Assembly (NCBI GenBank): GCA_031763025.1
Contig: JASSKH010000002.1
Coordinates: 14,873,468 to 14,937,467, forward strand
Origin: Macrocystis pyrifera
Lineage: Eukaryota > Sar > Phaeophyceae > Laminariales > Laminariaceae
Reading direction: 5' to 3'
DNA length: 64,000 nucleotides
Shown piece after piece: positions 2,824 through 46,675 of this stretch (positions within the stretch are counted from its first letter, which is position 1; every line of letters starts with the position of its first letter). A program made the position numbers and the translations under genes. The notes under the pieces were generated by a model. The model did not search any database. It saw only the letters and a list, made by a program, of their open reading frames with translations, and had not been told where the DNA came from.

Positions 2824-2865
2824 TCACCAACCCAGCACCGCCAGACGAACCGCCTCTACCGCCAG

Positions 2866-4862: not shown

Positions 4863-5361
4863 TGTGATATGAGTAGAGTATTCATGGGTCATAGATATAG
4901 ATAATACATTGCAGTCTTGTAGTCTCACGAATACGAGAATAGTCCAAAGAATGGATTAACCCGGCGGATATCCCGTTAGTCGAGAGTATCGTTATTTTAG
5001 GAATGTTCCCTAGGGCGGATAGCCCGTTAGACGAGAGTAATGTTCCTTGACGCAGATAGGACTACGAAGTGAGAAGTTCTTATATTAGCAGAAGAACGAT
5101 CGGTAGCCATAGGAAAGTTCTGTTGGAGTACATCAGATAAGAGGAATTTAGGAGAGCTTGTGGTGTGGGGTGGGACGAGTATATCTGGGCGTCGAGTCCC
5201 GCCCCCCTACCTCTCACTTCTCTACCAGAGCACCTCCTCAGCTCTCGCCATCAATAAGAAGATCTAAATCAGAAGAAGCGAAGCACTGCTTTCCAGCTGC
5301 CAGAACAACCTGCGTCCCTTGCCACTACCCTTACCACTACCCTAGAGCGGGCCCCGCATCA
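4863..5361 (+). repeat. 3' LTR of the left family 1 Ty3 element
   Basis: 499 bp, starting TGTGATATG and ending near GCATCA. It matches both LTRs of the minus-strand element (28203-28701 and 40624-41110) along its length, including the A/T-rich start and the segment with paired CTAACGGG / CCCGTTAG repeats. The downstream flank continues into the palindrome arm, so this is the insertion junction. Confidence 0.88.
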
Positions 5362-16700: not shown

Positions 16701-18599
16701 CTCTAGAGTCGTTGGTACCGACGCTGCCTCATCATGGGTGATGAACTTGATGATCTTAGAGCCGTAGTCTCGGAGCAGGGCCTTGCTCTCAGAGAGTAAG
16801 GCACAGCGGAAGTCCGGCAGGGAGCAGGGGCTACCTGCCGTAGATGCTGTGTCGCCATCGTTGGATCGCTTCGACGATGGCACGGTGGAGCCGGGAAAGC
16901 GAAGGGGAGATGTTTCCGGTGCAGGGCTGCGGGCCACTACAGCGACAGTCGCACCGCAAAGCTCTGCGAAAGGTGTGGTGGGAGAGGACACGAGAGCAGC
17001 AAGTGCGCATCGCCGGCGGACGTGGATGAATCGCCGGCGGCGGCCGTGTTTGCGATGGTGGGGGATCCCGGAGATGATGTGGAGACGACGGCGTTTTAGG
17101 GGCACAGCAGCTAAAAGCCCTACGGCGGACAACCGTAGGCACCTCCGCCGTGTGTTGCGAGCGGGGGACTTCAAGTCGTACGACATTTATTTGTTATACG
17201 CACTCCACTTCAGAGGTTGTGGAGGCAGCAGATATGGGGTTATCGCTCAGCGAGGGTACATGTCTGCATGCGAATTCCGCGAGAAGCCGCACCGCCGCCA
17301 GCCGTGTGCAACCCTACCGGGGGGTGTTAGGTGGGGCAAAGTCGCGCGGCATAATAGCTGCGTGCATTCTGCTGTTGTTAAAAAGCGGTGGCAGGAAACG
17401 GGCGTGGGGTAATCGTGGACTGTCTGCAGCAGTACCAAATAACGATGGGGTTTCGTCCGGGTGGCAACAAGCGAGCAGATCTGGGTGTTTCGTCAGCAGG
17501 AGCTTCATGCAAGGTCCGGCAACATCGCGGGGCGGAGGGGGTAGGTCTGGTCATCATGGTGTGATTTCGTAGGAATGAATGGTGAATTTAATTTTACGAT
17601 GGATACACCTGTCGATCGAAATTATTATTTTTTTGGTTGAGTGAGGTCCATATATTTGCGGCCAGGGTGGAGAAACCGTAGATAGTAGACGATGCATCAT
17701 CTGCGATTCTTCGTTCTGGGTGGTATACGTAGCCTTTTTCGCCTGGTAGCTTCGAAACGTATTTTCATGTTCAAATCAAACAGTCTTTGTAAATCCGAAA
17801 AACTTGTAGTGTTTTTCTGGTGTAGACAGGACCAGATGGGGCCTGGTAGAAATGAAATGCATAATCGTAGCGGTATGGAGAAATAAGGGTACGCTGATAC
17901 ACCAAAGGGAGGTGAGGTGTATTGCTGGTATTGGCGGTGGCTACTGATTATATTGAATTTTGCGGGTATCTTTTATTTTTGGCAGTAGACTACTGCCTGC
18001 AAAATAAAGGAGGGTGAGTATATTCATGGTTGATTGGTTGTTCTGCCAACAGTATCATTTTGCGAATACTTGTTCGCATCGGAGAAAAGTGGAACATATT
18101 TTCTGCGAATGATCGAATAGTTTTCGTAGCTGGGAGGGCTTAAGCTGTTCGTGTCGAAAGTAGTAGCGGCATTTTATTGTTTCTTTATTCGATTATTAGG
18201 AGCTACTGGGTAGCGACTATTATTTTTCGGGTAACTTTAGCGCCAGATAAATTCTAATTTTACAAGTGAAAAAGGACGTGTGCTATCTCGCATTACCGTT
18301 ACGATCTGAGAATTTATGACGGGAGTAGGGGGCAAAAGGAGACTTTTGTCCGGGGGAACGGGGTTCTCCGCGATCTCTGGCATTGTACTTTTCACCTTAG
18401 TTTTTATTATATTGGCGTGGATATATTGTAATATCGTCTACAATTGCAATATTTCTCTGTGGGGAGAGTGAGAGGTTTTTGCTCACAGGGGTGGGTTTCC
18501 TCGTTCTTTTCGATTTTTTTGCTTGTGGGTGTGGTTTAGGTCATGGAGTTGTGTGTTGTTGTCTTGGTCCGTAAATGTTACGTAAAGAGTCAGGGAGGG

Positions 18600-18821
18600 T
18601 GTTCGTTGTGCCTCTTTAGCTTGACAGTTACGTGCCGGTTCGGGATATTGGCTTATTGTGTCACATATATTGTGATTCTTGACATCTGGGTGTTATGGGA
18701 TGACGCACAATGTCACTTCTGCTGTCCCTACCACTGCTGGGAGATAATAATAAACGACCTGAATCATCAACTCATCGATTGTCTGGGTGTCTTGACTACC
18801 TGTGCTTGGGGCTGACGAACA
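18600..18821 (+). repeat. 3' LTR of W1
   Basis: 222 bp, from TGTTCGTTGTGCC to GCTGACGAACA. The start and end form a short inverted pair (TGTTCGT / ACGAACA). It is followed by the target duplication TGCCT. Confidence 0.8.
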
Positions 18822-27389: not shown

Positions 27390-28202
27390 AGGGTAATTGT
27401 TATTGCCCTCGATAAAATGCATTCGAGCGCTGTTCTCGGTTTGCTTGTCTCTTTTTTTGTGAAGTCGCAGGTAGAGTTGTCGAGAGTGACGGGAGAGGCC
27501 AGTCGGAACCAGCACAGACGGAACCCCAGAGTGCTGTGTCTGGCTCAGGCAGAGCATCTACTTGTTGACCATCGGTACCACTTATTATAGTGCTCGGCGG
27601 GGACATATATCCAGCAGTAGCACACGAAGACGGCACGAGCACCCGCACCAGTACCACAGCAATGGGATCGATATCATTGAGATGTAATTGGGGCTGCAGG
27701 GTTGAATACGAGACTGCTGTACCGCGAAATAGTTGTTGGCGAAATAAGAACTGATCTGAGGTGGATGCATGCTCTGGGGGGCAAGAGCTTGCCGCCGGCG
27801 TCTTGCGGAATCCTCCCAAACCTGAAAAAAAGCCCATATTTTGTTGTGTTGTTACACATTCGACAGATTGACGTCTTTTCAACTGCCCGGCTATTATTTT
27901 TGCGAGTACCGAAACATACGACGAGAGGATTGCAAAATACAAATAAAGGCGAGAAGTAGAAAGTAATCAACTAACTGCTCTGTGCTGTTGTTGTAAAATA
28001 CCTACGATAATAGTATTCAATCTTGGGTCATTCTTTTTGCGAGTACCGAAACATACATACGACGAGGATCGCAAAATACGAATAAAGGCGAAAAGTAGAA
28101 AGTAATCAACAAACTACTGCTGCTGTTGTTTTTATAAATTTTGAAATACGTTGTTGTAAAAGACCGACGATAGTTCGTATGCATTTTTTTAGTAGTAGTA
28201 CG
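27390..28202 (+). repeat. Tandem array unit I, P segment and start of B
   Basis: The P segment (from TTATTGCCCTCGATAAA) recurs at 42956-43550 and 43551-44147. The following stretch with GAGTACCGAAACATACGACGA recurs at 48528-48850. It is interrupted by the family 1 Ty3 element at 28203 and resumes at 41111. No gene is seen. A short Z2 fragment (near 28135) is inserted here and is absent from unit II. Confidence 0.82.
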
Positions 28203-28701
28203 TGAAGCGGAGACCGCTCTAGGGTAGTGGTAAGGGTCGTGGTAAGGGACGCAGGTGGTTCTGGCAGCTGGAAAGCAGTGCTTCGCTTCTTTAGATTTAG
28301 ATCTTCTTATTGATGGCGAGAGCTGAGGAGGTGCTCTGGTAGAGAAGTGAGAGGTAGGGGGGCGGGACTCGACGCCCAGATATACTCGTCCCACCCCATG
28401 CCACAAGCTCTCTTAAATTCCTCTTATCTGATGTACTCCTACAGAACTTTCCTATGGCTACCGATCGTTCTTCTGCTGATATAAGAACTTCTCACTTCGT
28501 GGTCCTATCTGCGTCGAGGAACATTACTCTCGTCTAACGGGCTATCCGCCCTAGGGAACATTCCTAAAAGAACGTTACTCTCGACTAACGGAATATCCGG
28601 CGGGTTAATCCATTCTTTGGATTATTCTCGTATTCGTGAGACTACAAGACTGCAACGTATTATCTATATCTATAGCCCATGAGTGCTCCACCCATATCAC
28701 A
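28203..28701 (-). repeat. 3' LTR of the full-length family 1 element
   Basis: 499 bp; on the element strand it runs TGTGATATGG to GCTTCA. It contains a small internal duplication (GGTAAGGGTCGT) that the other LTR lacks. A candidate polypurine tract (AGGGTGGGCTAA on the element strand) sits just upstream. Confidence 0.88.
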
Positions 28702-30316
28702 TTAGCCCACCCTGAATAGTCGTATATGCAGACCACAAGATGGTCGGAGGGTGATGACAAAGTTCATCCCAAACGGCCAGGGAAAAGGTGGTCGAAGATG
28801 CGGCTATTCGAAACAAAAGAAATGAGGCTATAGATCCCCCCACACCTCGTAACAAGACCCAAATACTACGACGAATGTTCGCTGAGAACAACCACTGAAA
28901 GGGAGACTAATGGAGAGAGAGACAGAACTCAAAGTAGAGGCGAAAGGAGAAATCACCCAAAATGAAAACAAAGAAAGACGAACGCAAAAGGAGACAGAAA
29001 CCGAAGCGAAGGCTGAAGAAGAAAACGAAGACCGAAATGAAGGAAAAAGAAGGACGTACAAGGGTATTACTGGAGCCATTGTCTGGGGCCCAAGGAGGTA
29101 CGAAAGAGTTGTTCGCTGAACCAGGTTGGCACACGAGGAAACTCTACAAAGGAGACAGCGATCACAATTCAAAAAAAACATATATATATATATATCCGCT
29201 AGGCGCCATGCCTTGTCTTGTGGCGAAGGTCCTAGGATGGCAGACATCACGCGAGACAGAAGGGACACAGCTAGGGTGCCATGAGGGCTGCGTGCACTAG
29301 GGACTACTAAAACCGAGAGACGCAACAAACAACGCGGCGTCTCGGAGACCTGTTCGTGGTGTGAACAGTACCAGCAAACGTAGCAAGATAAGAAACTCAA
29401 CAAAAACAAACTCAAAGACGGTGGCGGCAAGAAAATCCGCAAGAAAATCGACCGAATGCGTGCAGTTCGAAGTAGTAGATAGCGCGGGGCCCAAACACTA
29501 GCGTGTGCAACTCGGCCTACCGGGGCGACGTCAGTCGTGGTGTCGTTTGCCAGAGGACAGAGGGGCGTGCGGAATACCGAACAAGAAGAATGAAGAAGAA
29601 AAGGGAAAGAGAAAACGAAATACCATCGGGACCAGAAAACAGACAAAAAGCTGGACACAGGTCAGGAGAAATCGATCACGTCCGAACCGCTTATGTATGG
29701 CCGATAACTCAGCGGCCTTCCGCGGCGGCAATGCTGTCGGGACCCTACTTGTCAAACATGGAAGAAACACGGGTGAGCTGGAAGGTCGATATAGTCCTAG
29801 CTCGAGGACCGTCTGAAACACAGGTCGGCGGAAGTCGACTAAGGTCAGAGTACAGCTCAGGCTACAACACGATTTTACCTCGGCGTGATATCGCCGATAA
29901 TTGGCTGTAGGCTAGTGGTGTACAAACACAAATGCAAATGAAGGTATCGCTACGAATCAGTGACCTGAACGTAAGGAGGTTACACGGAGCCGTAGGCGAT
30001 AAGAAGAAAAACAAACGGGGGACGATGATACTCCCAAACACACCCAAAAAAGAAACATACACGGCCTCGGATCGGTAGCCAACACGGGGTCGGTCAAGCG
30101 ATACCGGTGGCGGTAGATGGAAACAAACACTCCCAAGAAGATGACTGCTGATGACTATTGAAGACTAACCCTGAAGAACTACTCTTAAGATATTGTAGAC
30201 TAACCAGAACCAAATATCCAGAACTACCGAAAGACTAAACTAAGGCTAACCAGGGGGGGGAGTGGAAACGGTGAGGGTTCCGCGGGACACATCAGAGTTC
30301 CGCAGCGCCCCACGTG
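28702..30316 (-). other. 3' untranslated zone of the full-length family 1 element
   Basis: Counterpart of 3235-4862. On the plus strand a 135-residue frame (29503-29910) has a closely similar partner in the left copy (3650-4024, minus). On the minus strand a 276-residue low-complexity hydrophobic frame (28828-29658) spans the same zone. Neither shows a recognised domain. Confidence 0.5.
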
Positions 30317-31867
30317 CTAGGGTTCCATTCCCATGGCGTTGAAGACACCACGATCCGTATACGGCGTTCCGTGCTGTAGTGTAGCGGGCGGGTTGGAGGT
30401 CGATCTTGATCGGGCCGGGGTCGTCCAGGAACCGGACGATGTAGGAGCTTCCCGGTGAAGGCTCCGGCGGAGTTCCCGAAGAGGCGTCAGGGGGTGAGCT
30501 GTGAGCGACCTTGCCCAGCCACCAAAGGCCGTCGCGCGCCTTGTACCATATGTGTGCTCCGGAAGGTAGGATGGTGGTGCTGAAGTTGTGGAGCTGCGGG
30601 AGACCAAGGCGTAGCCTGGGGTGAGGAAGGTTTGTCCTTGAGATCGGGCCAGTTCGCGGTGAGCGGCGCCGATGCGCATCTGGCGGTAGAGGCGGTTCGT
30701 CTGGCGGTGCTGGGTTGGTGATCGTGACCAGTACAGTAGGATGTGGCGCCGGAAGTGTTGAAGGTCCAGCTCGCGTTCCCAAGAGGGGCTGAGAAGTCCA
30801 GTCCAGTGAGTCTCGTACAGAACGACGATGACCCCGCCGCGGCCGCGTACGAGTTGATGGCCAGTGATCTGCTCGATCTCGAGGCGTTCCGGTGGAGGAG
30901 TGACGTCGTCGACGGTGACGTGGTAAGGTGGGGACTTGGCGGCAGAAGCTGTGAGCACGTATGTAGTAAGGTCCGCGGGCAGATGCTTGGGGATGTCGCT
31001 GGTGTCGTCAGGGTTCCGGCAAGGTTTGCATCGTTGGACGGAGACGCGTGGCTTGGAGTCCCGTCCCGGAAGGTCGGATGGAAGGTCGAGGAAAAGTAGC
31101 TTATCGTGAAGGGGGCGATTGTCGGGGGTGTTTGAAGCGGGCGTCGGCCCTACGGCGAGGACCTTGAAGGATTGTGTGTCATTCCAGTTCAGGGAAAGCT
31201 TCGTTTTGAGGACGGTTGCGTCGGTGCCCGTTTTGACGCCTTGGCGGATGGTTGGGGCGGAGTTGTAGACCCAAACCCAGCCGCCCACGGTGAAGGGGGA
31301 GGATGCTAGGAGGGCGGCCATGATGGGCGCATTGCGGCGCTGAAGACGCGAGACGGTGAGTCGGTGTAGTTCGCGGACGAGGGAATAGGCGCGTCGTTGT
31401 CGGTCGGTGGCGAGGTTGATGTAAACCAGGTGATCGCGGTCCAAGCTTTGGTGACCGCCGATGTTGTCGGGTTCGAAGACCGAGAGCGGGAGGCGAGGAA
31501 GGCGGCCCATGTGGATTTCGTTAGGTGCAAGCCCTGTGGCGGCGTTCACGGAATTGTTGTAGGCCGACGACACGTGTGGGAGCAGCACGTCCCAGTCGGT
31601 CTGCTGTTCGTTGCCAACCATAGAGAGCATTTGGACCAGCACATGGCTGACGCGCTCGACGCCGCCGTTGGTGCAGGGGTGGTAGGAGCTGGTGTTGACC
31701 GTGTGGCTGCCAAGGCGTTCGTAGACGATGTTCGCGAGCTTGGAGGTAAAGTGTAGTCCGTTGTCGGAGAGAAGTGTAACCGGGCACCCCCAGAGAGGGA
31801 TGTACTCGTTCAGGAAGATGTCGACAGTGCCGGCGGCCGTGAACTGCGCCGCTGAAACGGCATACAT
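30317..31867 (-). CDS. Ty3 integrase part, GPY/F module and chromodomain
   Basis: A 516-residue frame. It includes the second half of the integrase core (LLSDNGLHFTS segment and the GGVERV glutamate), a GPY/F-type module and a chromodomain that ends near LLYWS. The first core aspartate and the HHCC zinc module are recognisable further upstream (about 31930-32160). It is close to the left copy at 1147-2823. Downstream, the Tudor-like module is also recognisable (about 30330-30560). Confidence 0.85.
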   Translation of the reverse strand: MYAVSAAQFTAAGTVDIFLNEYIPLWGCPVTLLSDNGLHFTSKLANIVYERLGSHTVNTSSYHPCTNGGVERVSHVLVQMLSMVGNEQQTDWDVLLPHVSSAYNNSVNAATGLAPNEIHMGRLPRLPLSVFEPDNIGGHQSLDRDHLVYINLATDRQRRAYSLVRELHRLTVSRLQRRNAPIMAALLASSPFTVGGWVWVYNSAPTIRQGVKTGTDATVLKTKLSLNWNDTQSFKVLAVGPTPASNTPDNRPLHDKLLFLDLPSDLPGRDSKPRVSVQRCKPCRNPDDTSDIPKHLPADLTTYVLTASAAKSPPYHVTVDDVTPPPERLEIEQITGHQLVRGRGGVIVVLYETHWTGLLSPSWERELDLQHFRRHILLYWSRSPTQHRQTNRLYRQMRIGAAHRELARSQGQTFLTPGYALVSRSSTTSAPPSYLPEHTYGTRRATAFGGWARSLTAHPLTPLRELRRSLHREAPTSSGSWTTPARSRSTSNPPATLQHGTPYTDRGVFNAMGMEP

Positions 31868-33507
31868 ATCGGCGCGGCGGCTGAAGCGGTCTGTGAAGGG
31901 GAGGATGTGGACGTTCCCGCGCGGCGTGAGCGGCAGGGGCCTGATTTAGTCGACGCTGACGGTGATGCCAGGCCCGTTGGGCAAAGGAAGAGAAAGGATG
32001 GGCCAACGAATGGTGTGCCGGGAGGTCTTCCGCGCCTGGCATTGAAGGCAACGGCGGATCCACCAGCGGACGGAAGCGTCCATGCCAATCCACCAAAAGA
32101 AACGTGCCAACATGCGGACCGTTCGGGTGACTCCCAGGTGTAGAGAGGCGGTGGCGTGGCATGTGTTCAGCACCAAGGGCGCATTTACATTGGCACGTAG
32201 ACGCGTGGGTTAGAGGGGGCGGGTGGTGGTAGGCTGTTCCCGGATGAGGTTGTGGGTGGTCGTTGAACCAGGAGGGTGGTTTCGTCGTCGGTACGGTGTA
32301 GCTTGCTTTTGGAGGCAAGAGTGAGGACTTCCGAAAGTTGTGGGCGCCGGGCCGGGGGGATGAAGTCCAGGAGGTCGTGCGGCGTCGGGGTGGGGGAGTC
32401 CAACGACAGGAAACGGATGGTGGCGCAGCACAGGGGCTCCGCGCGTTGTTCTCGCGCCCAGTCTTTGTAGGTGTAGTGCTCGACGCAGGCGAGGAGGTAG
32501 GGGTCGTCATCGGGTTCGACGACGGGCTCCGGAAGGGGCACTGACGGTGGTGCTGGTGCCGGCGGAGAGGGCGTTGTTGAAGGGGTCGGTCTTTGCGTAG
32601 TGGGCGCCAATGGCTTGGGTGGCGGTCGGCGTCCAAACCGGTAGTCGGCTGTAGGCCGAGGGGTTCCCGCGGCAGCGGCGACGCGATGGCGGGTCCGAGA
32701 AGATATCAGACCTGGAAGGGCTGGTGTCGTGGCGCCAATGGTGGGCGGCGGAGAGACGACGGACGGGCATGGAAGCCGAGCCTGGAGGAGCTCCGGTGTT
32801 CACGGCGGCATTCTCGGTGCCGGCAAGCTGTCCGATGGTGGAGTCGCGGGTTGCGATAGGCCCGATGAAGGTGTGGGTTGCGGGGGAAAGGGTGGGGTGC
32901 TCCATACGTGGTCCGAGTAGGCGAAAGTCGCGGAAATCGTCGTCGGTGAGGGGAGCGGCTGGGCGGTTGGGATGGGTCTGGAAGGGGGGACACGAGCCCA
33001 CCCAAGCCGATACCCGGGGTGGAAGGGTCGTTCGGCGCGAAGCCGCAGGGGCGGATGAGGTAGATGCCGACGGTGTCGGGGCCAGTGAGGCGGTTGCGTC
33101 CGGTGCGGTCGGCGTCGGTGGCTGGTTGGGGAAGCCGGGAGAGGAAGTCGGCGTTGCCGTTGGCCGTGCCCTTCCGGTACTCCAGCGTGTAGGTGTACGC
33201 TGAAAGGAGCTCGAGACGTTGGGCTGTCCGGAGGTACGGTGATCTTGAACGGCATGAGCGGGCACGAGCCGAAGTCAGTTTTGGTGGTGGAGAACACGTC
33301 CTGGAATTCGCAGAGGACGTCTCCCAGGTTGTTGATCACCGACGGGGTCCATCCAGAACCGTGCAGGTAGAAGTTGACGTCGCGTAGGTGTAACGGCAGA
33401 CATTCCCAGAGGTCGAGGAAGCTTTCCCGTTGGTCGGCGTTGAGGCGTGCAAGGAGTTGTGGGCACGGGGCTTTTGGTGCGGTAGGAGGGTCGTCTGTCG
33501 ATGGGCT

Positions 33508-35160
33508 CTAGTCGGCCACGGGGATGTTGTCGTGGAGGGCATGTACATCCGGAATCGGAGGGGGATGGGGAGGGGCCAAGGAAGGGTGTCCAAGGGTGGA
33601 AAGTGGTACTTGTACCAGTGGGGAGCAGGAGGTTCCGAGGAGGTCGCCCGGCTCGAGATCGGTAGATCCAGATAGTGGGACCGTTTGGTATCCGTCCGAG
33701 ACGAAAATGGCCGTGTCGGAAAGGGGGTTCTCGCGGGGGAGCATGTTCACCATGTAGTTCCCGGTAAATGCTGGAGCGCCTGACTGACGCGCCAGGTTGA
33801 CCTTGACGAGCTTGGGGGTGGAGGAAAGCGAAATAGCTTCGTTGCCGGCGAATCGGAGGTGGTAGACGTCGTCAGTGGAACGGTCGTCGGGAATGAATGC
33901 TGAGGCTCCGTTGGGGTCATGGTGGTTCAAGGAGAGCTCACCGCGGGTTCGCCGGGGAGGTTGATGGGGGGGGGTGGGCTGTTGCTGGAGCGTGGTATAC
34001 GAGCGTTGCTCGAAGCGCATCCAGCTGTCTCGTCCCAGAAGGATGGGGTGCTGCATGGTTCCTGCAGGAACTACGCAGGCCCACACTGCCAGGGCAGCGG
34101 TGGGGGACTGGAGGCGCATAAACTGGATGCTTAAGCGGATGGAGACGGAGGTGGAGAGGGGAGCTGAAGTGCCGAAACCTCCCCATGAACGGGGGGAACT
34201 GTGCCGTTCGTACGCATCGGTGGCTGCCTGGGAAGCCTTCAGTTGTTCCACCGCGGTTGCGGTGATAAACGACTGGGGCGAGCCGGTATCGAGCAGTGCC
34301 ACGAGTTCGCGGCACGTAGTGGCGGTGGGGCCGCTGCGCACGAGTACGTTCGTCGTGAACGACGCGTCGTCGACGGTAATGATGCCGCATGGTCCGTGTT
34401 CCGGTATCGGCGGGCGGCGGGTAGGGAGGTGGCTGTGGGCTGCGGTGTTGATGGTGGACCCTTGGGCAAAGTGGCTGCTAGGGTAGGCGTCGGGGGTAGA
34501 CGGCGGTAGGAGTGGCCCAAGTGGAGAGGTAGGCGGTTGCCATGGAGGGGTCGGGCTTGTTTCGTGGATGCCGTCGGCTGTGGGGGAGACCCGGGTGGAG
34601 TCGGTGGGGGCGGGTGTTGGCTCCGGGTCGTGAAGATGGGGAGGAAATGGAGGTTGGGCGGAGCGATTGGCGCCGAGGATTTCTCGAACGTCCATCAGTA
34701 TCCTGCTCAGCAGATTCCGACCACGCCAACGCGTCGGGTCGCAGGCGTCCGGATGGTCGGCCTTCAAGTCTATGCCCCAGATGAGGTCGTGTGGGCTGGC
34801 CTCGGCGATGTGCTTGTCGCCGGTTGCTATTAGCTCCTCCCGTAGCTCCGGGTGTTGGCGGAACTTGGAGAAGTTAATGTGGAGGACGATGGTATAGCGG
34901 TGTCGCCACCAGACCATTTCGTCGAAGTCGGAAACGGTTCGCCCAAATGCTTTTTGGCGGGCCGGGTCGCGGGTCGCTTTGATGCGGCGCTCAGTTGTGG
35001 AGTCCCCGAAGAGCGCGGCCTTCTGCGCCATCATCATCTGTTCAGCGCAGTTGTATGTGACGCCATCGTGTTCGATGTCGCACAGGTACCACTGCGAAAA
35101 GACCGAAGAGGAGTCCCAGAAGAAGTGGAAAGATGAGGCGGCCTCTGCGGTGACGTGTGC
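33508..35160 (-). CDS. NADAR (YbiA-like) domain plus retropepsin, Ty3 polyprotein segment
   Basis: From the first methionine (35037) the frame has 509 residues, but the NADAR domain begins upstream in the same frame with FFWDSSSVFSQWY and NCAEQ. Then come KAALFGD, TRDPARQKAFGRTV, KFRQHPELREEL, IWGIDL and WRGRNLLSRILMDVR (to about residue 118), which together cover the whole NADAR pattern of about 150 residues. A Pro-rich linker follows. The retropepsin has LLDTGS (Asp250) and ILLGRD (332-337). Family knowledge: NADAR proteins such as YbiA act on N-glycosidic bonds in riboflavin intermediates or ADP-ribose derivatives. A retroelement role is unknown; reversal of ADP-ribosylation or nucleotide sanitation are possibilities. 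Confidence 0.82.
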   Translation of the reverse strand, partial: AHVTAEAASSFHFFWDSSSVFSQWYLCDIEHDGVTYNCAEQMMMAQKAALFGDSTTERRIKATRDPARQKAFGRTVSDFDEMVWWRHRYTIVLHINFSKFRQHPELREELIATGDKHIAEASPHDLIWGIDLKADHPDACDPTRWRGRNLLSRILMDVREILGANRSAQPPFPPHLHDPEPTPAPTDSTRVSPTADGIHETSPTPPWQPPTSPLGPLLPPSTPDAYPSSHFAQGSTINTAAHSHLPTRRPPIPEHGPCGIITVDDASFTTNVLVRSGPTATTCRELVALLDTGSPQSFITATAVEQLKASQAATDAYERHSSPRSWGGFGTSAPLSTSVSIRLSIQFMRLQSPTAALAVWACVVPAGTMQHPILLGRDSWMRFEQRSYTTLQQQPTPPHQPPRRTRGELSLNHHDPNGASAFIPDDRSTDDVYHLRFAGNEAISLSSTPKLVKVNLARQSGAPAFTGNYMVNMLPRENPLSDTAIFVSDGYQTVPLSGSTDLEPGDLLGTSCSPLVQVPLSTLGHPSLAPPHPPPIPDVHALHDNIPVAD

Positions 35161-35172
35161 AGTTGATGGCGT

Positions 35173-36060
35173 CTATGGTGTTGGGGGTGGGGGGCGACGA
35201 TAATTATTCCTATCGCCGCCTGGCGTCGACGGAGGTAGAGTCAGCAACGATCGAGCGGTGCTGACCGGAACCCTCGTGTTCGCGGGGGAATTGCTCGGCA
35301 AAGCCGAGGTATCGGGGCGGTCCTCGCCGGGGCTTACAAGCCGGGCGGGACGACCCTCAAGCGCCCTATCGTCCAACTTTTGGAGAACAGGGGCATACTC
35401 GCTAGGGGATGCCACACCTGGGGTCCGTGTCCACGCTTTGCGCGAAGCAGGCGAGGAGGACGGGTCAGGGGGCTCAGGGCAGACCCTGGTCGACGTTGGT
35501 CGCGAGTCTTCCGTATTTAAAACGGGACTGTCCCTCGAGCTCAGGGACAGCGGTGGTGTCAACACCGTGGCAGCTGGAGGAAGCCCGTCGTTCGCGGGTT
35601 CAACGCTGTCACAAGAAATGCGCGCATGCTGGAACATGCGCGTATGGAGCGGCCAATATGAGGCAGGCTCAGGGGGCGATGGCCCGGTAGACGAACCAGT
35701 AGTTTCGTGTGAACCGGAACCGCTGGTAGCCGTAATCGTCGAGACGTTTCCCAGGGTAGCAATGTCTGGGGTCTCGGCAATAGTCGGCAAGCAGCGTTGC
35801 TCACCGCCAGAAGACGTCGAGTGGAGCATCCCGGTGGGGCTCGGCGTCTTGGCCTCCTCTCGCCTACACCTCAAGGCAATCACTTGGGCAAGATGATCAG
35901 TGCTTGAACAAGTGGTTGTGAAATGGGCTGGGGTAGGGGGGGGGGCATTGGGGGGCAGGGGTCGGGTAGGCGTGGTGCACGTGATTTGCTCGTGCGTCCT
36001 GGGAGCCTCGGGTGCTCGCAGTAGATGCTGTTGGTGGAGATGGGACAGTTGCTCCACCAT
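35173..36060 (-). CDS. Gag/linker frame of family 1 Ty3 element
   Basis: A 295-residue Ser/Pro/Thr-rich frame between the gag N-terminal part and the NADAR-protease frame. No domain is recognised; the composition suggests a disordered spacer. A cysteine-rich knuckle-like remnant (CPNC with nearby His and Cys) lies just upstream near 36550-36600. Confidence 0.5.
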   Translation of the reverse strand: MVEQLSHLHQQHLLRAPEAPRTHEQITCTTPTRPLPPNAPPPTPAHFTTTCSSTDHLAQVIALRCRREEAKTPSPTGMLHSTSSGGEQRCLPTIAETPDIATLGNVSTITATSGSGSHETTGSSTGPSPPEPASYWPLHTRMFQHARISCDSVEPANDGLPPAATVLTPPLSLSSRDSPVLNTEDSRPTSTRVCPEPPDPSSSPASRKAWTRTPGVASPSEYAPVLQKLDDRALEGRPARLVSPGEDRPDTSALPSNSPANTRVPVSTARSLLTLPPSTPGGDRNNYRRPPPPTP

Positions 36061-36559
36061 CGGCTTGTCCGTTGGTGCGGAAGGTGCCCGGCTGCCGTTG
36101 GTTCGGGTGGGTACTTCGAGTTGGTGCTGCCCGTCCGCATGTTCGCGGGGGCGGCAGGTGCGGGAGTATTGGTCGCGGGGCTATGCAGCGTCAATGCTGA
36201 AGACGAGGGGGCAGGCTCGGTGCGTTGTCGATGTAACAATTGCCCTGGCGACTGTCGGTTGCCGTTGTCGTATGACCAGCCGTTGTTGTGGCGCCAGTTG
36301 TCGGAGCGCCCGTTGTTGCCGCGGTAGTTGCGGGAGTGGTTCTGGTTGGAGCGGTTGCTGTTATAGTTCCGCTGCGGTTGTTGTGATGGTTGCCTCGACG
36401 GCTGTTGTTGTTGTGGCGGTTGGAGTGCCGCTCAAGGTTGTGCTCGTAGTGTCCACGGCGGTAGGAGAGCATCCTTCGTTGCCATTGGCGGTAGGCGTGT
36501 CCGACTGCCGGGCTGAGGATGCCGGACGTGTTGCGAAGCGCAGGGGGCAGGTCTTCATA

Positions 36560-37630
36560 CTATGTCCGTGCCATTGCAGTTGGGGCAGTGGTCACCGTGA
36601 GCTCGTAGGGCTGGGGAGTGGGACACCACGACGTTCCGCCTCCGTCGTGGGCTCCGTGTTGGCTCTCGTCATCAGGCTGCGCGCTCGTGAGGAGGGGGGC
36701 GCTGTCGTCGTGGGGGGCGCTGTCGAGGTGGGAAGGGGCGGTGTCGCCGGCGATGGCGTATCCGTCGTGGGGCGGGTGGTTGGGGGTGTCGGCGGAGCGG
36801 GTCGAGACGGTTGGGTTCCGCACATAGCCGCGGCCGGCGTTCGAGTGAAAATACCGTGGCTCGAGTAAACGGGTATGGGCGGCCCCGACGAACTCGGAAG
36901 AAACACCTTCGGTGGCGGCGCGGGCCAGAACGAAGGTGATCGACGGGTCGCAGTCGGGTGTGAAGAGCCGATATACGCGGTGTGCCTCTAGCGAGACATC
37001 CGAGGCTATCGGGTTGCGTGTACTCTGCATCCAGCGGAGTTTAGCGTCGAGGAAGACCCAGTCATTGGGCTCAAAGCCGAACGTCTGCGGGTGCCGGTGC
37101 CCAGTGGGTATGGGGGCTGGCAAGGGTTGGGCCGGTAGTGGTGCCTGGGACATTGTGGTCCCAGTTTGGTTTTTGGGAGGCTGAGAGGTGGTGGTCCTAG
37201 ACATCGCGGCGGACGTATAGGGTGCACATGGTGAGGAAGGGGTGGGGGGCGGCAGTAACACGAGTAGGAGGTCAGGGCTCTCTTTCGCGAGAAGGAGGAG
37301 CTGCTCGTGGTGGGCTTTGGGGGCCGCAGGGCGCTCACGGAGGGCCGTGGGATCGCCTTGGTAACGCCCCGGATTGAGAGCCAGGGTGGAGGTTTCCTGT
37401 GCGGAGACCTCCGGGTTGATGGTAGGCCCGGCACTGGTCGTGCCTGCTCCCATTGGAGAAGATCCCGATGTGGTGGGGTGTAGCGTGAGGTCGCTCAGAT
37501 TGGTTTCGAAGCCAGGGGTGTCGTCGTCGGTAGCGCGAAAGGCCCTTGCGGCATACCTCGCCTCGCGGGGGTTGGTGGCGTCGGGGGAGTGGGCGCCGGG
37601 CATGTTGATGGAGGAAGCTTTCTCTGCCAT
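36560..37630 (-). CDS. Gag N-terminal frame of family 1 Ty3 element
   Basis: A 356-residue frame starting MAEKASSINMPGAHSP. The first 170 residues are low complexity. A compact capsid-like part (about 190-275) has aromatic and leucine positions (FGFEPNDWVFLDAKLRWM, VYRLFTPDCDPS). The position after the leader and before the knuckle-like region fits Gag. The family assignment comes from context, not from a recognised motif. Confidence 0.6.
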   Translation of the reverse strand: MAEKASSINMPGAHSPDATNPREARYAARAFRATDDDTPGFETNLSDLTLHPTTSGSSPMGAGTTSAGPTINPEVSAQETSTLALNPGRYQGDPTALRERPAAPKAHHEQLLLLAKESPDLLLVLLPPPTPSSPCAPYTSAAMSRTTTSQPPKNQTGTTMSQAPLPAQPLPAPIPTGHRHPQTFGFEPNDWVFLDAKLRWMQSTRNPIASDVSLEAHRVYRLFTPDCDPSITFVLARAATEGVSSEFVGAAHTRLLEPRYFHSNAGRGYVRNPTVSTRSADTPNHPPHDGYAIAGDTAPSHLDSAPHDDSAPLLTSAQPDDESQHGAHDGGGTSWCPTPQPYELTVTTAPTAMART

Positions 37631-40623
37631 GGTTAGGCGGGTGGAACGCTTGTACTGGGGCGGGAAAAGGTTTGGTGGAAGATGGAGAGGGTGGGTAGAT
37701 CCAGGCTTGGATCAGGGTAGGCGGCTACAATACCAACAAACCGATCTAGGGGAGAGAAAGGAGTGACGGTAAGGGCGTACGATAGGGGGTGTTGAGGTTG
37801 TGTGTGCCACGAGTTTAGTGCCCATCGACCATCGAAAGATATTTTTATAGTTGAGGGCATCTAACTAGCGTCAGGCGCCTCGCGTTTGATTGACGGTAGT
37901 CGCGCCCGAGTCACTCAAGTAATATCAGTTGAACATAATTGAACAGAACTCCGTCTGAAATGCCCAATGTTCGTAATGATAACAGGGCGTGACGCTTACT
38001 GAGCGTGGGCAGTGCAAGACCTTTCGTTGGGATACAAATAAGAGTACCCGTAAAGAAAATGTGCAGGTCGAGTCGGGAAAAAAAATGCAGTATGCCGGCA
38101 CTATTTAGTAGCTGCACAGAATATCGGGCGATTCCCTAAACGGTGGGCAGCTTGTCGTTCCGTGGCAAAACAGACAGCAACCCGGTACATTTCGGGGCGT
38201 CGCGAGGTCCGATACGATGTGAGATACTTAGGGTATCGTAGAGGTAGCACAAGTGAGAGAAACAAAAATAAATAACTAGACCCCGGTACGTAAAAACGTG
38301 GAAAAGGGTATCATTCGGCTCCTGTGGGGAGGTCCAATACTCTAATCCGCCGCGAAAAAAAATGTATGTTATTTTGTTTAATTTGGCCAGCATTTAGTTC
38401 ATCACTTTGGAACTGGTCACTGCCCGGGCCATAGTTATTGTGTTCCATATTTGAGCAGCATGCAGCTGCTGTTTTAGTGAGAAGCTGGACAAACAAGGGA
38501 TAAACAGCTATGGAACTCGTTTGTGTAGCCATTGTAGTGTTACAGTTCTAGGCAGTCTCTACCCTGCATTATTTGTAAAAGCGGGTGGGGATGGGATGCG
38601 CTGGAAAATAACACTTGTTACAAACTTGAACAATGTCTACCCTGCTTTGGCTCAAAGTGGGGAAAAAAAAGAAAAAAGAAAACAAACGTCGAAAGCGAAA
38701 CGGGAAAGGGAGGGAAAACAAACACGACCAAACAAAATATTCAGACCAGATCAAGGTAGCGTACCTTCTGTTAATGTAGTACAGCTGGGGGGGGTAGACG
38801 TAAACAGCAGTAGTCAGACAAGGTTGTGGGCGCCATAAAGCCTCGTTGTATCGTTAACGCGGAAGATCGTGCACGTGGGGAGCTGTAGTTGTGCGGCATA
38901 TACCTTATTTCTGGCGTCAAACTGGGAAATTTAGGCGTACACAGGCAGCCGTGGGCCAAGGTTCAGCAAAATAAAGCCGTCTTACTATGTCGTTAACGCT
39001 GGAAAACGTGCACGTAAAGAGCAGCAGTAAAAAAAAAATAAAACAAAAAAATGGAAATAATGGCCGTTGTTTGTATCCTATAGGCTGTAGGGGTGGGGCA
39101 AAAATGTAGCAGAAATCTGGTCAATTTCGGCAACATGCGCCCTGTTTTTGTAGTAAAGGCGCCGCAGGAGGTGCATCATGCCGCTTGTTCTGTACCTCGT
39201 AGGGTAGAAGCAGCGTAAGGATGGGCCAATCTGAAGAGGGGTGCACATATGTACGCTGGTCCCAAAAGAGCTACTACGTGCAACCATATAAGATTCGTCT
39301 GCGAGTATATGCGTTCCTATACGATGGATGTGCGACTCCATCACATCGAGACGGGGGGACCGACCCAATTGTGCATCGTTTGGCTACCTAAATATATGGC
39401 AGGGAACGAGGGGGGGGCACGGGAATTTTCGCTACTATATACGTAATATTATTACTACGTGCCATGGTACCACTATTCACTATTTGTACCTCGCTCGTAT
39501 ACCAGTCTCTGTAGGCCAGTATATGGTTTGAAATCCGGTAACCAAAGGGCATGAAAAAAAATAATGGCTCTTCTCGCTATCAGGGGGTCGCAAGTAAGGT
39601 CAGTCCATACGTATACTATTGCTCGTATCAGGTAAAAAAATAAAAAATAATAATAATGGCCTCTCAAGAACTCGTGGGCGAATATTCCATGCGATGGATA
39701 CCAGCGGATACAATTCGCAATGATGGTCGAGCCGTTTGTACGCTGCTCACAGATGCGTATACTAACGATGGCGTAGTAAGTCACACCACCGGCATACATA
39801 TCACGTACCAAAGAATAAGGTGTCGGTACTGCTGCGTGTTTGTCCTATCAGTACGATAGCAGCTTCTTTGTAGTCGTGGTAAGGGTCAAATACCATACAA
39901 CACGGGTACAAACCGGAAGATGCGGACAAAATGTCTGCGGGCAAGAATGTGCCAGTAGTTCCACCTACAGTAGTACTTACTACGTGCATACCCTTTGAAA
40001 GGGCGGGCATATCGAGGCGGAGGGGTACAAAGGAAAACGCTGCTTGGTTTGTGCGATGAGCACGAGGTCATTTGGGGGGTCTACAGGTGCATTCAACCAC
40101 GTGGAATCCCGTATCGTGGAGGTCATCGACCTCGTCATTGCACGGCGGAGACGGGGCAGAGGGAGCGGAAAAACAAACCTCGATCATCATACTGCTATTA
40201 GCACCAGTACTTATATATCAGGTACTTACTAAGAAAGAACAACAGAGCTTGTTGCACGTACTTGCACGTGCGATTTGACGGTGCCTACTAGGAGGAGAGA
40301 AGCGTCAACTCACCTATACTGGGAGGGGAGAAGCGTCTACTTATGCCACTAGGCAGCTTGTCACGCTCTACACTATAAACGCACTCAGTAACGCAGGTTC
40401 GTAAAAATAAAAAAAGAAGAAAAAACGGAAGAAAAGAGAGTGCAAGAAGAACGAAAGAAACGAGAAACGGGGAACACAAATTAAAATAAATAAATAAAAA
40501 GTAGACTTCAAAACCAGATGCCTCCCGGATAGGGATGGCTCACATGATCGTAAGAAGATCTAGAAGAAGCGCTGCAGTCCCAAGCTTGGCCAGAACATTC
40601 GTTGGATGCGACGACGTCAGATG
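37631..40623 (-). other. Long leader of the full-length family 1 element
   Basis: About 3 kb between the 5' LTR and gag. It has A/T-rich stretches and scattered short frames without recognised domains. No second promoter or inserted gene could be supported. No clear tRNA-complementary primer site starting TGG was found next to the LTR. Confidence 0.5.
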
Positions 40624-41110
40624 TGAAGCGGAGACCGCTCTAGGGTAGTGGTAAGGGACGCAGGTGGTTCTGGCAGCTGGAAAGCAGTGCTTCGCTTCTT
40701 CTGATTTAGATCTTCTTATTGATGGCGAGAGCTGAGGAGGTGCTCTGGTAGAGAAGTGAGAGATAGGGGGGCGGGACTCGACGCCCAGATATACTCGTCC
40801 CACCCCATGCCACAAGCTCTCTAAAATTCCTCTTATCTGATGTACTCCTACAGAACTTTCCTATGGCTACCGATCGTTCTTCTGCTGATATAAGAACTTC
40901 TCACTTCGTGGTCCTATCTGCGTCAAGGAACATTACTCTCGTCTAACGGGCTATCCGCCCTAGGGAACATTCCTAAAAGAACGTTACTCTCGACTAACGG
41001 AATATCCGGCAGGTTAATCCATTCTCTGGATTATTCTCGTATTCGTGAGACTACAAGACTGCAACGTATGATCTATATCTATAGCCCATGAGTGCTCCAC
41101 CCATATCACA
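40624..41110 (-). repeat. 5' LTR of the full-length family 1 element
   Basis: 487 bp, matching 28203-28701 apart from about nine substitutions and the 12-bp duplication. It is flanked on the right by AGTACG and then array unit I. Confidence 0.88.
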
Positions 41111-42898
41111 AGTACGCAATTTTTCAATAGTACTCTTCAGGAGTCCGAGAGCGCAGAACGAAAATTGAATAGGGTGTTTTCGTCGGTACACTTACTATCC
41201 AAAAATGATGTCTCTCCGGCATGCGCTTTATCAATTTCTAAATATAGATCTTCTCGGAAAACGATCAGATGGGTGTCGATGTGCAATAATTTGCAAGTAC
41301 GTACGTGGACGCTGTACTAATCTCTCGTATACGATGGATGAGCGCTGTGCGCTGGCAGGTTGTTCATTGAATTATACCTGGTATGCGAGTACGGAAACAT
41401 ACGATGACAATCGCAAACAAATAAAGGCGAAAAGTAGAAAGTATCCACTGCACTGCTGCCGGCGGCGTCCTACGGTATCCCCCCAAACCTGAAGAAAAGC
41501 CCATTTTTTGCCTTTCGCTGCTGTAAAGACTTGCGATAGTATGCAATTTTTTGGCCATTCGAGACGCAGAGTAGTACTCGTACTGCGTAGATAATTTTGC
41601 TCTGGCACAAAAAGTAACCCACTCCTGTTGTACTGTAAATGCAAATACCTCCTCCTATAGTATGCGAATGGAAACGCGAAGTACACCAAAAAAGTATTAT
41701 TTCGGCTCGTGCCCCGATACACGATAGACGCTCGATCTCGACAGAGACTAAGCCCACGGACAACCCGCGCGGTGGCGGGCAATATCAACTAGTATAGATG
41801 ACGGGTTCGAATCAATGAGGTGGATGAATGCTCTAGGGGGCAAGAGCTTGCCGGCGGCGTCCAACGGTATCCTCCCAAAACTGAAAAAAAGCCAATTTTT
41901 GGCCATTCATTCGAGACGTTTGTTGTACTGAATCATGATGTACTGATAGACACAATACATTTTTTTGCCATTCTGTTATGATACTGCTTGGATACAGCAC
42001 TCTGCAGTACAGCAGTACTCGTCCATAATTTTTCTCTGACACAAAAAGTAACCCACTCCTGTTGTACTCTAAAAAACAGAGACTCAGCCCACGGGCAACC
42101 CGCGCGGTGGCGGGCAAGATCAACTAGTACAGATGACGGGCTCGAAGAAATGAGGTGGATGCATGCTCTAGGGGGCAAGAGCTTGCCGGCTTCGTCCTAC
42201 GGTATCCTCCCAAACCTGAAAAAAACCCATTTTTTGCCATTCGAGACGGATGCAGCAGTAGTAGTACTCATAGCTAATGTTTTTCATCTATTTCGTGCAC
42301 ACCAGCGGCCAATGCGCTGCACTGAGCGTGGGACCCAAGCGTCTGAGCCGACTCTTACTCTTGTATTCATCGCCACTCTTGCACAACAAGACAGCACTAC
42401 AATAATAGCATGCACCTGGTCTGGTGTATAGACGTCTCCCCAACTCGGTATGGGCGTCTGAGCCAACTCTTGTATTCATCCCCACCCTTGCACAACAAGA
42501 CGGCACTGCAGCAGTAGCAGGCACCTGGCCTGGTGTATAACCGTCTCCCCAACTCGGTATGGGACATGGGATATATTGGTATGGTATGTGGGAATATGGT
42601 ATATGGGAATATGGGATATTGGTGGTATGGTATATGGGGATATATATGGGAAAACCACCGTATGTGGTATGGTATGTGTTGACGGTATGGTACGGAAAAA
42701 ACACAGTATATGGTATGGTACGTTTGTGGTATGGTACCATGGTACGATATCGTGGATGTATTATATGGCAAATTTTGCCTTGTGGTATGGTATGTTTCAG
42801 TATATAAGGTCCGTAAGGGTCGAAAACGTCGTACAAATATCAATTGCAACGAGCTTATATATCGGCCATTGGAAAGTGTTCGAAAATATAAGCTTGCG

Positions 42899-44243: not shown

Positions 44244-46675
44244 TGTTCGTCAGCCCCAAGCACAGGTAGTCAAGACACCCAGACAATCGATGAGTTGATG
44301 ATTCAGGTCGTTTATTATTATCTCCCAGAAGTGGTAGGGACAGCAGAAGTGACATTGTGCGTCATCCCATAACACCCAGATGTCAGGAATCACAATATAT
44401 GTGACACAATAAGCCAATATCCCGAACCGGCACGTAACTGTCAAGCTAAAGAGGCACAAAAAACACCCTCCCTGACTCTTTACGTAACATTTACGGACCA
44501 AGACAACAACACACAACTCCATGACCTAAACCACCCACAAACAAAAAAATCGAAAAGAAAGAGGAAACCCACCCCTGTGAGCAAAAACTTCTCACTCTCC
44601 CCACAGAGAAATATTGCAATTGTAGACGATATTACAATATATCCACGCCAATATAATAAAAACTAAGGTGAAAAGTGAGATCGCGGAGAACCCCGTTCCT
44701 CCGGACAAAAGTCTCCTTTTGCCCCCTACTCCCGTCATAAATTCTCAGATCGTAACGGTAATGCGAGATAGCACACGTCCTTTTTCACTTGTAAAATTAG
44801 AATTTATCTGGCGCTAAAGTTACCCGAAAAATAATAGTCGCTACCCAGTAGCTCCTAATAATCGAATAAAGAAACAATAAAATGCCGCTACTGCTTTCGA
44901 CACGAACAGCTTAAGTCCTCCCAGCTACGAAAACTATTCGATCATTCGCAGAAAATATTTTATGTTCCACTTTTCTCCGATGCGAACAAGTATTCGCAAA
45001 ATGATACTGTTGGCAGAACAACCAATCAACCATGAATATGCTCACTCTCCTTTATTTTGCAGGCAGTAGTCTACTGCCAAAAATAAAAGATACCCGCAAA
45101 ATTCAATATAATCAGTAGCCACCGCCAATACCAGCAATACACCTCACCTCCCTTTGGTGTATCAGCGTACCCTTATTTCTCCATACCGCTACGAGTATCA
45201 TTTCATTTCTACCAGGCCCCATCTGGTCCTGTCTACACCAGAAAAACACTGCAAGTTTTTCGGATTTACAAAGACTGTTTGATTTGAACATGAAAATACA
45301 TTTCGAAGCTACCAGGCGAAAAAGGCTACGTATACCACCCAGAACGAAGAATCCCAGATGATACATCGTCTACTATCTACGGTTTCTCCACCCTGGCCGC
45401 AAATAAATAGACCTCACGTCCGACCAAAAAAAAACAATTTCGATCGACAGGTGTATCCATCGTAAAATTAAGTTCACCATTCATTCCTACGAAATCACAC
45501 CATGATGACCAGACCTGCCCCCTCCGCCCCGCGATGTTGCCGGACCTTGCATGAAGCTCCGGCTGACGAAATACCCAGATCTGCTCGCTTGTTGCCACCC
45601 GGACGAAACCCCATCGTTATTTGGTACTGCTGCAGACAGTCCACGATTACCCCACGCCCGTTTCCTGCCACCGCTTTTTAACAGCAGCAGAATGCACGCA
45701 GCTATTGTGCCGCGCGACTTTGCCCCACCTAACACCCCCCGGTAGGGTTGCACACGGCTGGCGGCCGTGCGGCTTCTCGCGGAATTCGCATGCAGACATG
45801 TACCCTCGCTGAGCGATAACCCCATATCTGCTGCCTCCACAACCTCTGAAGTGGAGTGCGTATAACAAATAAATGTCGTACGACTTGAAGTCCCCCGCTC
45901 GCAACACACGGCGGAGGTGCCTACGGTTGTCCGCCGTAGGGCTTTTAGCTGCTGTGCCCCTAAAACGCCGTCGTCTCCACATCATCTCCGGGATCCCCCA
46001 CCATCGCAAACACGGCCTCCTCCGGCGATCCATCCATGTCCGCCGGCGATGCGCACTTGCTGCTCTCGTGTCCTCTCCCACCACACCTTTCGCAGAGCTT
46101 TGCGGTGCGACTGTCGCTGTAGTGGCCCGCAGCCTTGCACCGGAAACACCTCCCCTTCGCTTTCCCGGCTCCACCGTGCCATCGTCGGAGCGATCCAACG
46201 ATGGCGACACAGCATCTACGGCAGGTAGCCCCTGCTCCCTGCCGGACTTCCGCTGTGCCTTACTCTCTCGACTCGTTCTCAATAGAGTCGCCATCATCTC
46301 AAGCAGTTCAGCAAGTAGAGACGATTTTTGACGCTCCTCCGCGTCTGCGGCTGCTTGTTGTAAAGTTTGGGGAGTAAGGCCCTGCTCCGAGACTACGGCT
46401 CTAAGATCATCAAGTTCATCACCCATGATGAGGCTACGTCGGTACCAACGACTCTAGAGTGTTCGTCAGCCCCAAGCACAGGTAATCAAGACACCCAGAC
46501 AATCGATGAGTTGATGATTCAGGTCGTTTATTATTATCTCCCAGCAGTGGTAGGGACAGCAGAAGTGACATTGTGCGTCATTCCATAACACCCAGATGTC
46601 AAGAATCCCATAATGCACAATATGCCAATATCCCGAACCGGCACGTAACTGTTAAGCTAAAGAGGCACAACGATA
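44244..46675 (-). mobile_element. Small gag-only LTR element W2 (TRIM/LARD-like)
   Basis: Minus-strand relative of W1, with LTRs at about 44244-44475 and 46460-46673. The 5-bp duplication reads CGAGT at 44239-44243 and at 48528-48532, once the later TIR element at 46676-48524 is discounted. The internal part again shows only a gag-like region with a CCHC knuckle pattern. The target is array unit II, and unit I holds the uninterrupted sequence near 27920. It is broken and of moderate age. Confidence 0.75.
45647..46426 (-). CDS. Gag-like frame of W2
   Basis: A 259-residue frame starting MGDELDDLRAVVSEQ. Residues 1-50 are acidic and leucine-rich and look helical, possibly a coiled coil. The rest is basic and low complexity. 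The same nucleotides carry a CCHC knuckle pattern (CERCGGRGHESSKC in W1). W1 has a counterpart at 16738 onward. Assigned to Gag by position and knuckle only. Confidence 0.5.
   Translation of the reverse strand: MGDELDDLRAVVSEQGLTPQTLQQAAADAEERQKSSLLAELLEMMATLLRTSRESKAQRKSGREQGLPAVDAVSPSLDRSDDGTVEPGKRRGGVSGARLRATTATVAPQSSAKGVVGEDTRAASAHRRRTWMDRRRRPCLRWWGIPEMMWRRRRFRGTAAKSPTADNRRHLRRVLRAGDFKSYDIYLLYALHFRGCGGSRYGVIAQRGYMSACEFREKPHGRQPCATLPGGVRWGKVARHNSCVHSAAVKKRWQETGVG

Follow-up and report, generated by a model that had tools for sequence, protein, structure and literature searches.

A Ty3/Gypsy family in the kelp Macrocystis pyrifera with a YbiA-subfamily NADAR domain at the start of Pol, and its amplified subfamily without reverse transcriptase

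Introduction

The closest described systems come from another brown alga, Ectocarpus, in which Gypsy elements carry a YbiA-type NADAR domain near the N-terminus of Pol; the NADAR–Ty3 fusion itself is thereby already published, and a role of the domain in processing RNA intermediates has been suggested (PMC12477816). Gypsy-12_Ec32 of Ectocarpus resembles the kelp elements described below in being a Ty3/Gypsy element of a brown alga with a YbiA-family NADAR near the Pol N-terminus, in the bacterial-like character of its NADAR, and possibly in a chromodomain-like C-terminus (PMC12477816). The kelp elements differ, as compared by description rather than by element sequences, in forming two families and in having an amplified subfamily that lacks reverse transcriptase (RT) and keeps a NADAR-protease part.

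NADAR domains have been found in several other settings. Tx1 LINEs of Crassostrea gigas also represent retrotransposons bearing a NADAR, but they are non-LTR elements with the domain in ORF1 rather than Pol, and that domain is described as divergent (PMC12477816). In nidoviruses, hepe-like viruses and picornaviruses, as in the kelp elements, NADAR is embedded in a polyprotein together with a polymerase, although these are positive-strand RNA viruses without reverse transcription (PMC9503650). The NADAR of Phytophthora nicotianae (8bau; PMC11543638) shares the fold and matches the kelp domain at 10 of 11 named active-site positions (with F for Y84), but differs in that D86 is replaced in kelp and identity in the structural alignment is 30%, and it is not described as part of a retroelement in the text available. 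E. coli YbiA (2b3w) and phage and bacterial YbiA-like proteins likewise share the NADAR fold (41–53% identity of the window domain to the 80 bacterial relatives listed), but stand outside a retroelement polyprotein, and some act as antitoxins beside an ART (PMC11125620).

Several NADAR subfamilies hydrolyse guanine-ADPr in vitro (PMC11125620, PMC11543638). Guanosine-ADPr is hydrolysed in vitro by E. coli YbiA and by a phage NADAR, neither of which rescues cells from DarT1 (PMC11125620). NADAR domains also act on riboflavin intermediates, and soluble ADPr derivatives have been proposed as further substrates, whereas the polyprotein-embedded NADARs of eukaryotic RNA viruses are argued to target mainly macromolecular ADP-ribose (PMC9503650).

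Here, we analyze a 64,000-nucleotide stretch of the Macrocystis pyrifera genome (hereafter the window; contig JASSKH010000002.1, positions 14,873,468 to 14,937,467) together with related copies elsewhere in the genome. What is new is that most of the checked copies of the family to which the window element belongs lack RT and have kept NADAR, that is, they constitute an amplified RT-deleted subfamily. The available text of the Ectocarpus account (PMC12477816) mentions no NADAR element with RT deleted, and in a full-text literature search of one limited collection, as far as its texts were available, neither the kelp families nor an RT-deleted NADAR-protease form was described.

Results

Structure of the element in the window

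The window contains a whole, non-autonomous Ty3/Gypsy LTR element of about 12.9 kb on the minus strand (28202..41110), delimited by an LTR pair and a target duplication. Both LTRs were identified as direct repeats: the 5' LTR begins with TG and spans 40623..41110, its end having been placed afterwards, and the 3' LTR spans 28202..28701. The direct repeats at 28233-28701 and 40642-41110 are identical at 460 of 469 bases (9 differences), and the 5-bp target duplication GTACT flanks the element on both sides, at 41111-41115 and 28197-28201. The window copy thus has the LTR pair and short target duplication of a Ty3/Gypsy element.

In the sense of the element, the order is gag remains, NADAR-protease frame, RT stub with RNase H tail, integrase, and a chromodomain-like end, all on the minus strand. 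The remains of gag (36464..37219) comprise an N-terminal part (36809-37219) and a frameshifted zinc-knuckle part (36464-36611), with about 960 bases gone. Behind them, a stop-to-stop frame of 554 codons plus stop (33508..35172) encodes the NADAR domain (34675..35124; assigned by profile, sequence and fold) and then a probable retropepsin (33988..34386). The RT stub, fused to the tail of RNase H (32801..33423), marks the site of a deletion of roughly 1175 bases. The zinc-binding and core parts of integrase (31595..32223) contain a frame break and stops and lie outside the NADAR frame. The chromodomain-like C-terminus (30704..30898) is 97% identical to that of a related copy, L026; the Pfam Chromo matches of both fall below the cut-off (E 0.12 for the window, 0.035 for L026), and none was obtained in the corresponding piece of L028.

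An in-frame stop lies 16 codons ahead of NADAR in the window frame, and no ATG precedes the domain; the window copy alone is therefore probably unable to express NADAR normally, and it is doubtful as a gene. A Pfam search of the region upstream of NADAR (35173-36180) gave no match at E 0.01. In five related copies (L011, L013, L015, L017 and L018), some 270–360 codons of open frame precede NADAR.

The preliminary description of this locus, made from the sequence alone, had placed the NADAR blocks and the DTGS and ILLGRD motifs in one uninterrupted frame. Such a frame exists, but on the minus strand; frame 1 of the plus strand over 33508-35160 contains several stops. That description mentions neither the strand nor the LTRs, and it lacks both the in-frame stop ahead of NADAR and the shared deletion of RT.

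The window holds many further repeats. Positions 1-5362 hold another copy of this element in inverted orientation, on the plus strand (95.6% identical to 28202-33560), which runs past the window start; a NADAR match lies about 1.1 kb upstream of the window (14871895 on the contig). Outside the element, an inverted 2-kb repeat pair is found at 16791-18821 and 44244-46268 (97% identical).

Identity and active site of the NADAR domain

Residues 17-166 of the window frame match the NADAR profile PF08719 at E 4.9e-46 and 157.4 bits (cut-off 35.1), covering profile positions 1-162 of 163, so that the domain proposed in the preliminary description is borne out. Among solved structures, sequence comparison of the window NADAR gave 8bau (1.4e-16), the oomycete NADAR solved with ADP-ribose, and 2b3w (2e-6), E. 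coli YbiA. The AlphaFold2 model, computed from an alignment that includes 28 bacterial and viral NADARs, has a pLDDT of about 91–98 over residues 11-170, and Foldseek at E <= 0.001 returned the same two structures only (8bau, E 5.6e-11; 2b3w, 1.8e-8). Together, the Pfam and Foldseek matches rule out a chance match or pseudo-domain.

To compare active sites across 102 genomic copies (see below), the numbering of PMC11543638 was set on the 8bau chain by means of an inferred offset of two, with which the named residue types agree. W89, R93, E125, D130 and W133 are conserved in all 102 copies, as are K50 and R79 in 101 and E43 and K75 in 99. The Y84 position is F in 102 of 102, and D86, the only named position with unlike residues, is replaced by E in family A and by C, R or Y in family B, the unlike ones; 10 of the 11 named positions are thus near-invariant. 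In an alignment of 29 rows that includes bacterial and viral NADARs, 23 columns are invariant, and the window copy keeps every one of them.

E125 assigns NADARs to the YbiA subfamily, and the equivalents of K50 and E125 in E. coli C7 matter for hydrolysis of guanine-ADPr (PMC11543638). The window copy has E125, E43 and K50; with E125 retained, the kelp domain belongs to the YbiA subfamily. The DarT1-associated (BC4488-type) antitoxin NADARs require Asp at this position, where all 102 copies have Glu, and that subfamily is excluded. The P. nicotianae NADAR, the nearest solved relative found here, is reported to be active (PMC11543638).

The protease part

No protease family was matched in the window frame by the Pfam search at E 0.01, and the protease piece searched by itself gave sub-cut-off matches to Asp_protease_2 (E 0.0032-0.023) and Peptidase_A2B (0.005-0.026). 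The motifs LLDTGS (34279-34296) and ILLGRDSW (34021-34044) are present in the window; DTGSPQ.FI and LGRDSW are kept in families A and B (six rows, one of which reads LGCDSW), and the part sits between NADAR and RT in RT-containing copies. A PDB profile search with the protease alignment returned only a Ty3 Gag-Pol chain (E 0.91), and the AlphaFold2 prediction, with pLDDT below 60 throughout and mostly below 50, was unusable. The protease part is probably a retropepsin, a reading that leans on motifs and position more than on profiles; to that extent the NADAR-retropepsin pairing in a Ty3 polyprotein, as first described, is right.

Two families of NADAR-bearing elements

The genome search yielded 1264 first-look candidates. 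Scores were computed for 150 of these, every one of which exceeded the Pfam cut-off for NADAR; the genome therefore holds at least 150 matches, a lower bound, which rules out a one-off capture. We compared 102 places, namely 101 from the top of the NADAR-score ranking of these 150, a ranking that favors intact domains, plus the window, which was not in that list; seven loci repeating the place of another locus had been dropped. The presence of the domain in all 102 disposes of the single capture that the preliminary description had named as its refutation.

The copies fall into family A, with 59 copies including the window, and family B, with 43; the median pairwise difference is 2.1% within A and 3.7% within B. 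The two families are about 44% different in nucleotides, and the B copies have 45–51% amino-acid identity to the window copy. Across 144 NADAR codons there is no indel among the 102 copies, and stops within these codons occur in 5 of 59 A and 8 of 43 B copies. Distinct NADAR sequences number 50 of 59 in A and 42 of 43 in B, and identical copies may be assembly or segmental duplicates.

Twenty long copies (11 A with the window, 9 B) were compared. The 20 long copies drawn from the genome include one place twice and were chosen mostly for long open frames around NADAR, so that their frame integrity is biased. In all 20 compared, NADAR lies upstream of the protease match, the arrangement for which the preliminary description had suggested searching other elements. 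RT-containing relatives such as L010 and L028 have the order NADAR, protease, RT, RNase H, integrase, chromodomain-like end, and hence the Ty3/Gypsy domain order (protease, RT, RNase H, integrase), which the window copy shows without RT. The RT/RNase H part of one relative is nearest Ty3 among solved structures (4ol8, 209 bits; 7q5b, 208 bits). RT is matched in each of the nine long family-B copies, though in one only partially. Where whole pieces align, A and B are about 75% identical in RT and about 62–72% in integrase, and the chromodomain-like stretch, where found, is 64–79% identical. In the family-B copies L020 and L021, the gag-side frame overlaps the pol frame in another frame, which suggests a frameshift between them.

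The contig that holds the window (22.0 Mb, 4.1% of the genome) contains 26 of the 150 NADAR matches (binomial P 5e-10). Of the 87 rows whose profile range is 1-162 (mostly A), 21 lie on it, as do 2 of the 48 rows ending at 163 (mostly B). From its size rank, we infer that this contig is Scaffold 2 of PMC10498591, for which a putative female sex-determining region in the gene-poor second half is reported.

An RT-deleted subfamily

Fifty-one family-A copies (11 long, 40 short) were checked for RT deletion, and RT status is known for 50 of the 59. The same deletion of about 1175 bases, removing RT and most of RNase H, is present in 39 of the 51, so that the window copy and 38 others have no RT of their own; its ends agree within a few alignment bases across all 39. 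A further 11 copies are continuous at the site, nine of them as seen over only 500 bases there, and one gave no match. One of these RT-bearing copies, L130, has another, smaller deletion of about 116 bases near the same place. That the ends coincide, and that the window copy has LTRs and a target duplication, indicates transposition of the deleted form itself; the coincident ends and the target duplication also rule out loss of RT in the window copy alone after insertion.

The deletion shifts the frame in all 39 copies, and in 36 of them the sequence that follows it is in a different frame from NADAR. A common TGA lies about 45 codons ahead of the deletion in 31 of 39 RT-deleted and 0 of 11 RT-bearing copies; judged by distance from NADAR, it shares the frame of NADAR in 19 of the 39 RT-deleted copies. 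The window copy lacks this TGA, and its NADAR frame stops earlier. By the same measure the RT stub is in the NADAR frame in 26 of the 39, and the RT start in only 3 of the 11 RT-bearing copies; many copies are thus unable to make a single NADAR-to-RT chain without a frameshift. Among the 11 RT-bearing copies (for example L119, L123, L128, L131 and L148), the NADAR-RT offset is +2 in five and +1 in three, which could stem from decay or from a frameshift site. Of the nine long RT-deleted copies, six have a NADAR frame that stops short of the deletion; in the other three it runs past the deletion but ends outside the integrase frame. None of the nine therefore encodes NADAR and integrase in one open frame. 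Long frames break near integrase even in RT-bearing copies.

The gag deletion of about 960 bases is common to 8 of the 11 long family-A copies, including the window, and reaches further in one. Its combinations with the RT deletion comprise neither (L010), gag only (L011), RT only (L015 and L026) and both (seven copies); the gap that L015 has at the zinc knuckle is a different one. The occurrence of all four combinations suggests recombination between co-packaged RNAs.

The "broken pol" of the preliminary description is more aptly viewed as a shared deletion than as a lone breakage. Because the deletion is common to 39 of 51 checked copies and the NADAR frame never reaches integrase in the nine long ones, we regard it as an amplified non-autonomous form that keeps NADAR-protease.

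Selection on NADAR

In the test for purifying selection among related copies, as advised in the preliminary description, singleton variants were taken to reflect mostly decay after insertion, variants in at least two copies were taken to have mostly been passed on through replication, and the expected ratio of nonsynonymous to synonymous changes was set from the singleton mutation spectrum. Shared variants gave an omega of 0.43 in both families (A: 22 nonsynonymous to 19 synonymous, P 0.007; B: 32 to 28, P 0.001), and singletons were near neutral (1.03 in A, 0.90 in B). Singletons and shared variants differ at a pooled Fisher P of 0.0013 and, by family with codon-based counts, at 0.028 (A) and 0.0004 (B). 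These counts are subject to recurrent mutation, duplicate copies and the ranking by NADAR score; since identical copies are possibly duplicates, a neutral variant can look shared. The sequence comparison supports the view that NADAR was under purifying selection while the elements replicated.

When the 39 RT-deleted copies are taken by themselves, nonsynonymous changes in NADAR are modestly depleted among shared variants (17 nonsynonymous to 14 synonymous, omega 0.49, P 0.036); among shared variants absent from the 11 RT-bearing copies, the counts are 11 nonsynonymous to 12 synonymous. The stretch behind the deletion gave 20 to 9 (omega 1.08). These ratios lean towards selection acting on NADAR and not on the region downstream, but the difference between the two is not significant (P 0.30; 0.16 for NADAR variants private to RT-deleted copies).

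Origin of the domain

Among bacteria, 228 of 346 stretches encoded relatives, of which the 80 listed are 41–53% identical to the window domain and thus as close to it as family B. A single-sequence scan for a close viral relative found six stretches that fit a pattern, none of which encoded a relative; the alignment-based viral search found relatives in 84 of 151 stretches, the best 80 at 36–51% identity. Several phage records (for example OP752703, OQ504960 and ON331942) have NADAR/YbiA-like genes annotated as GTP cyclohydrolase.

Capture of NADAR by A and B independently, from bacteria or viruses, would fit the observation that B is 58–59% identical to some Bacteroidota NADARs (Capnocytophaga, Prevotellaceae) but 45–51% to the window copy of A, and the free 164-row tree, in which A and B each form one clade, leaves their relation in one open fork. 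For an 82-row subset, however, the tree joining A and B, which the free search had missed, had the higher likelihood (p-AU 0.94), and the two NADARs occupy the same place in Pol with no indel across the 144 codons. We accordingly give two captures only slight credence, and these comparisons favor one capture followed by divergence.

Discussion

A kelp Ty3/Gypsy family has a Pol that starts with a YbiA-subfamily NADAR ahead of a probable protease, and the window copy belongs to a non-autonomous, RT-deleted subfamily of it. The sequence further permits the inference, already drawn in the preliminary description, of a role against host ADP-ribosylation or damaged nucleotides. The best explanation overall, which we hold tentatively and at slightly less than even confidence, is that the NADAR of the element is a putative ADP-ribosyl N-glycosidase made with the Ty3 particle, kept by selection, and clearing ADP-ribose or its derivatives. 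NADAR would be synthesized together with Gag-Pol, or as a NADAR-protease product where RT is deleted; the protease would release it, and it would act in or near the particle. There it could free the RNA or cDNA of the element from ADP-ribose on guanine or from a comparable N-glycosidic adduct; alternatively, it might degrade host-made ADP-ribose derivatives that would block copying. RT-deleted copies would borrow RT in trans from full-length relatives and keep NADAR. Against this explanation stand the frame breaks of many copies, the in-frame stop ahead of NADAR in the window copy, the modest depletion among RT-deleted copies, the ranking of copies by NADAR score, and the greater divergence of NADAR than of RT between the families (45–51% as against about 75% identity).

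The benefit to the element could instead be metabolic, with NADAR as a YbiA-like N-glycosidase that clears damaged or toxic ribosides such as riboflavin-pathway intermediates, cyclic ADP-ribose signals or ADPr by-products of RNA repair, rather than ADP-ribose on nucleic acids. The action of NADARs on riboflavin intermediates and their proposed action on soluble ADPr derivatives (PMC9503650) speak for this, and the failure of YbiA and a phage NADAR to rescue cells from DarT1 despite in vitro hydrolysis (PMC11125620) suggests that the true substrates may differ. The position inside Pol nevertheless points to a role in the particle, as does the case made for macromolecular targets of the viral polyprotein NADARs (PMC9503650), and we consider a purely small-molecule role unlikely. 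A third reading, in which NADAR is a passenger or serves RNA binding or particle structure without catalysis and is replicated together with its element, would account for the presence of NADAR in RT-deleted copies with frame breaks, for the modest shared-versus-singleton contrast in family A alone (Fisher P 0.028), and for the lack of a significant difference from the stretch behind the deletion. It sits poorly with a catalytic pocket that is near-invariant across 45–51% identity, with the 23 of 23 invariant columns kept by the window copy, and with the omega of 0.43 for shared variants in A and B, and appears distinctly unlikely to us.

A bolder extension of the preferred reading, namely that the RT-less, largely Gag-less form, whose chief enzyme frame is NADAR-protease, outgrew its RT-bearing parents by providing, or drawing on, de-ADP-ribosylation in shared particles, is in our estimation highly unlikely; if true, it would imply that brown algae have a so far unrecognized barrier against retroelements that is based on ADP-ribose. 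The literature searched, as far as its texts were available, contained no mention of ADP-ribosylation-based restriction in these algae. The kelp NADAR offers a direct biochemical test case, because its nearest solved relative is a crystallized oomycete NADAR reported to hydrolyse guanine-ADPr (PMC11543638). The RT-deleted subfamily represents a natural experiment that shows what a parasite of a parasite retains of Pol, and the retention by retrotransposons of an enzyme that removes ADP-ribose suggests that in brown algae the nucleic acid of retroelements is reached by ADP-ribosylation.
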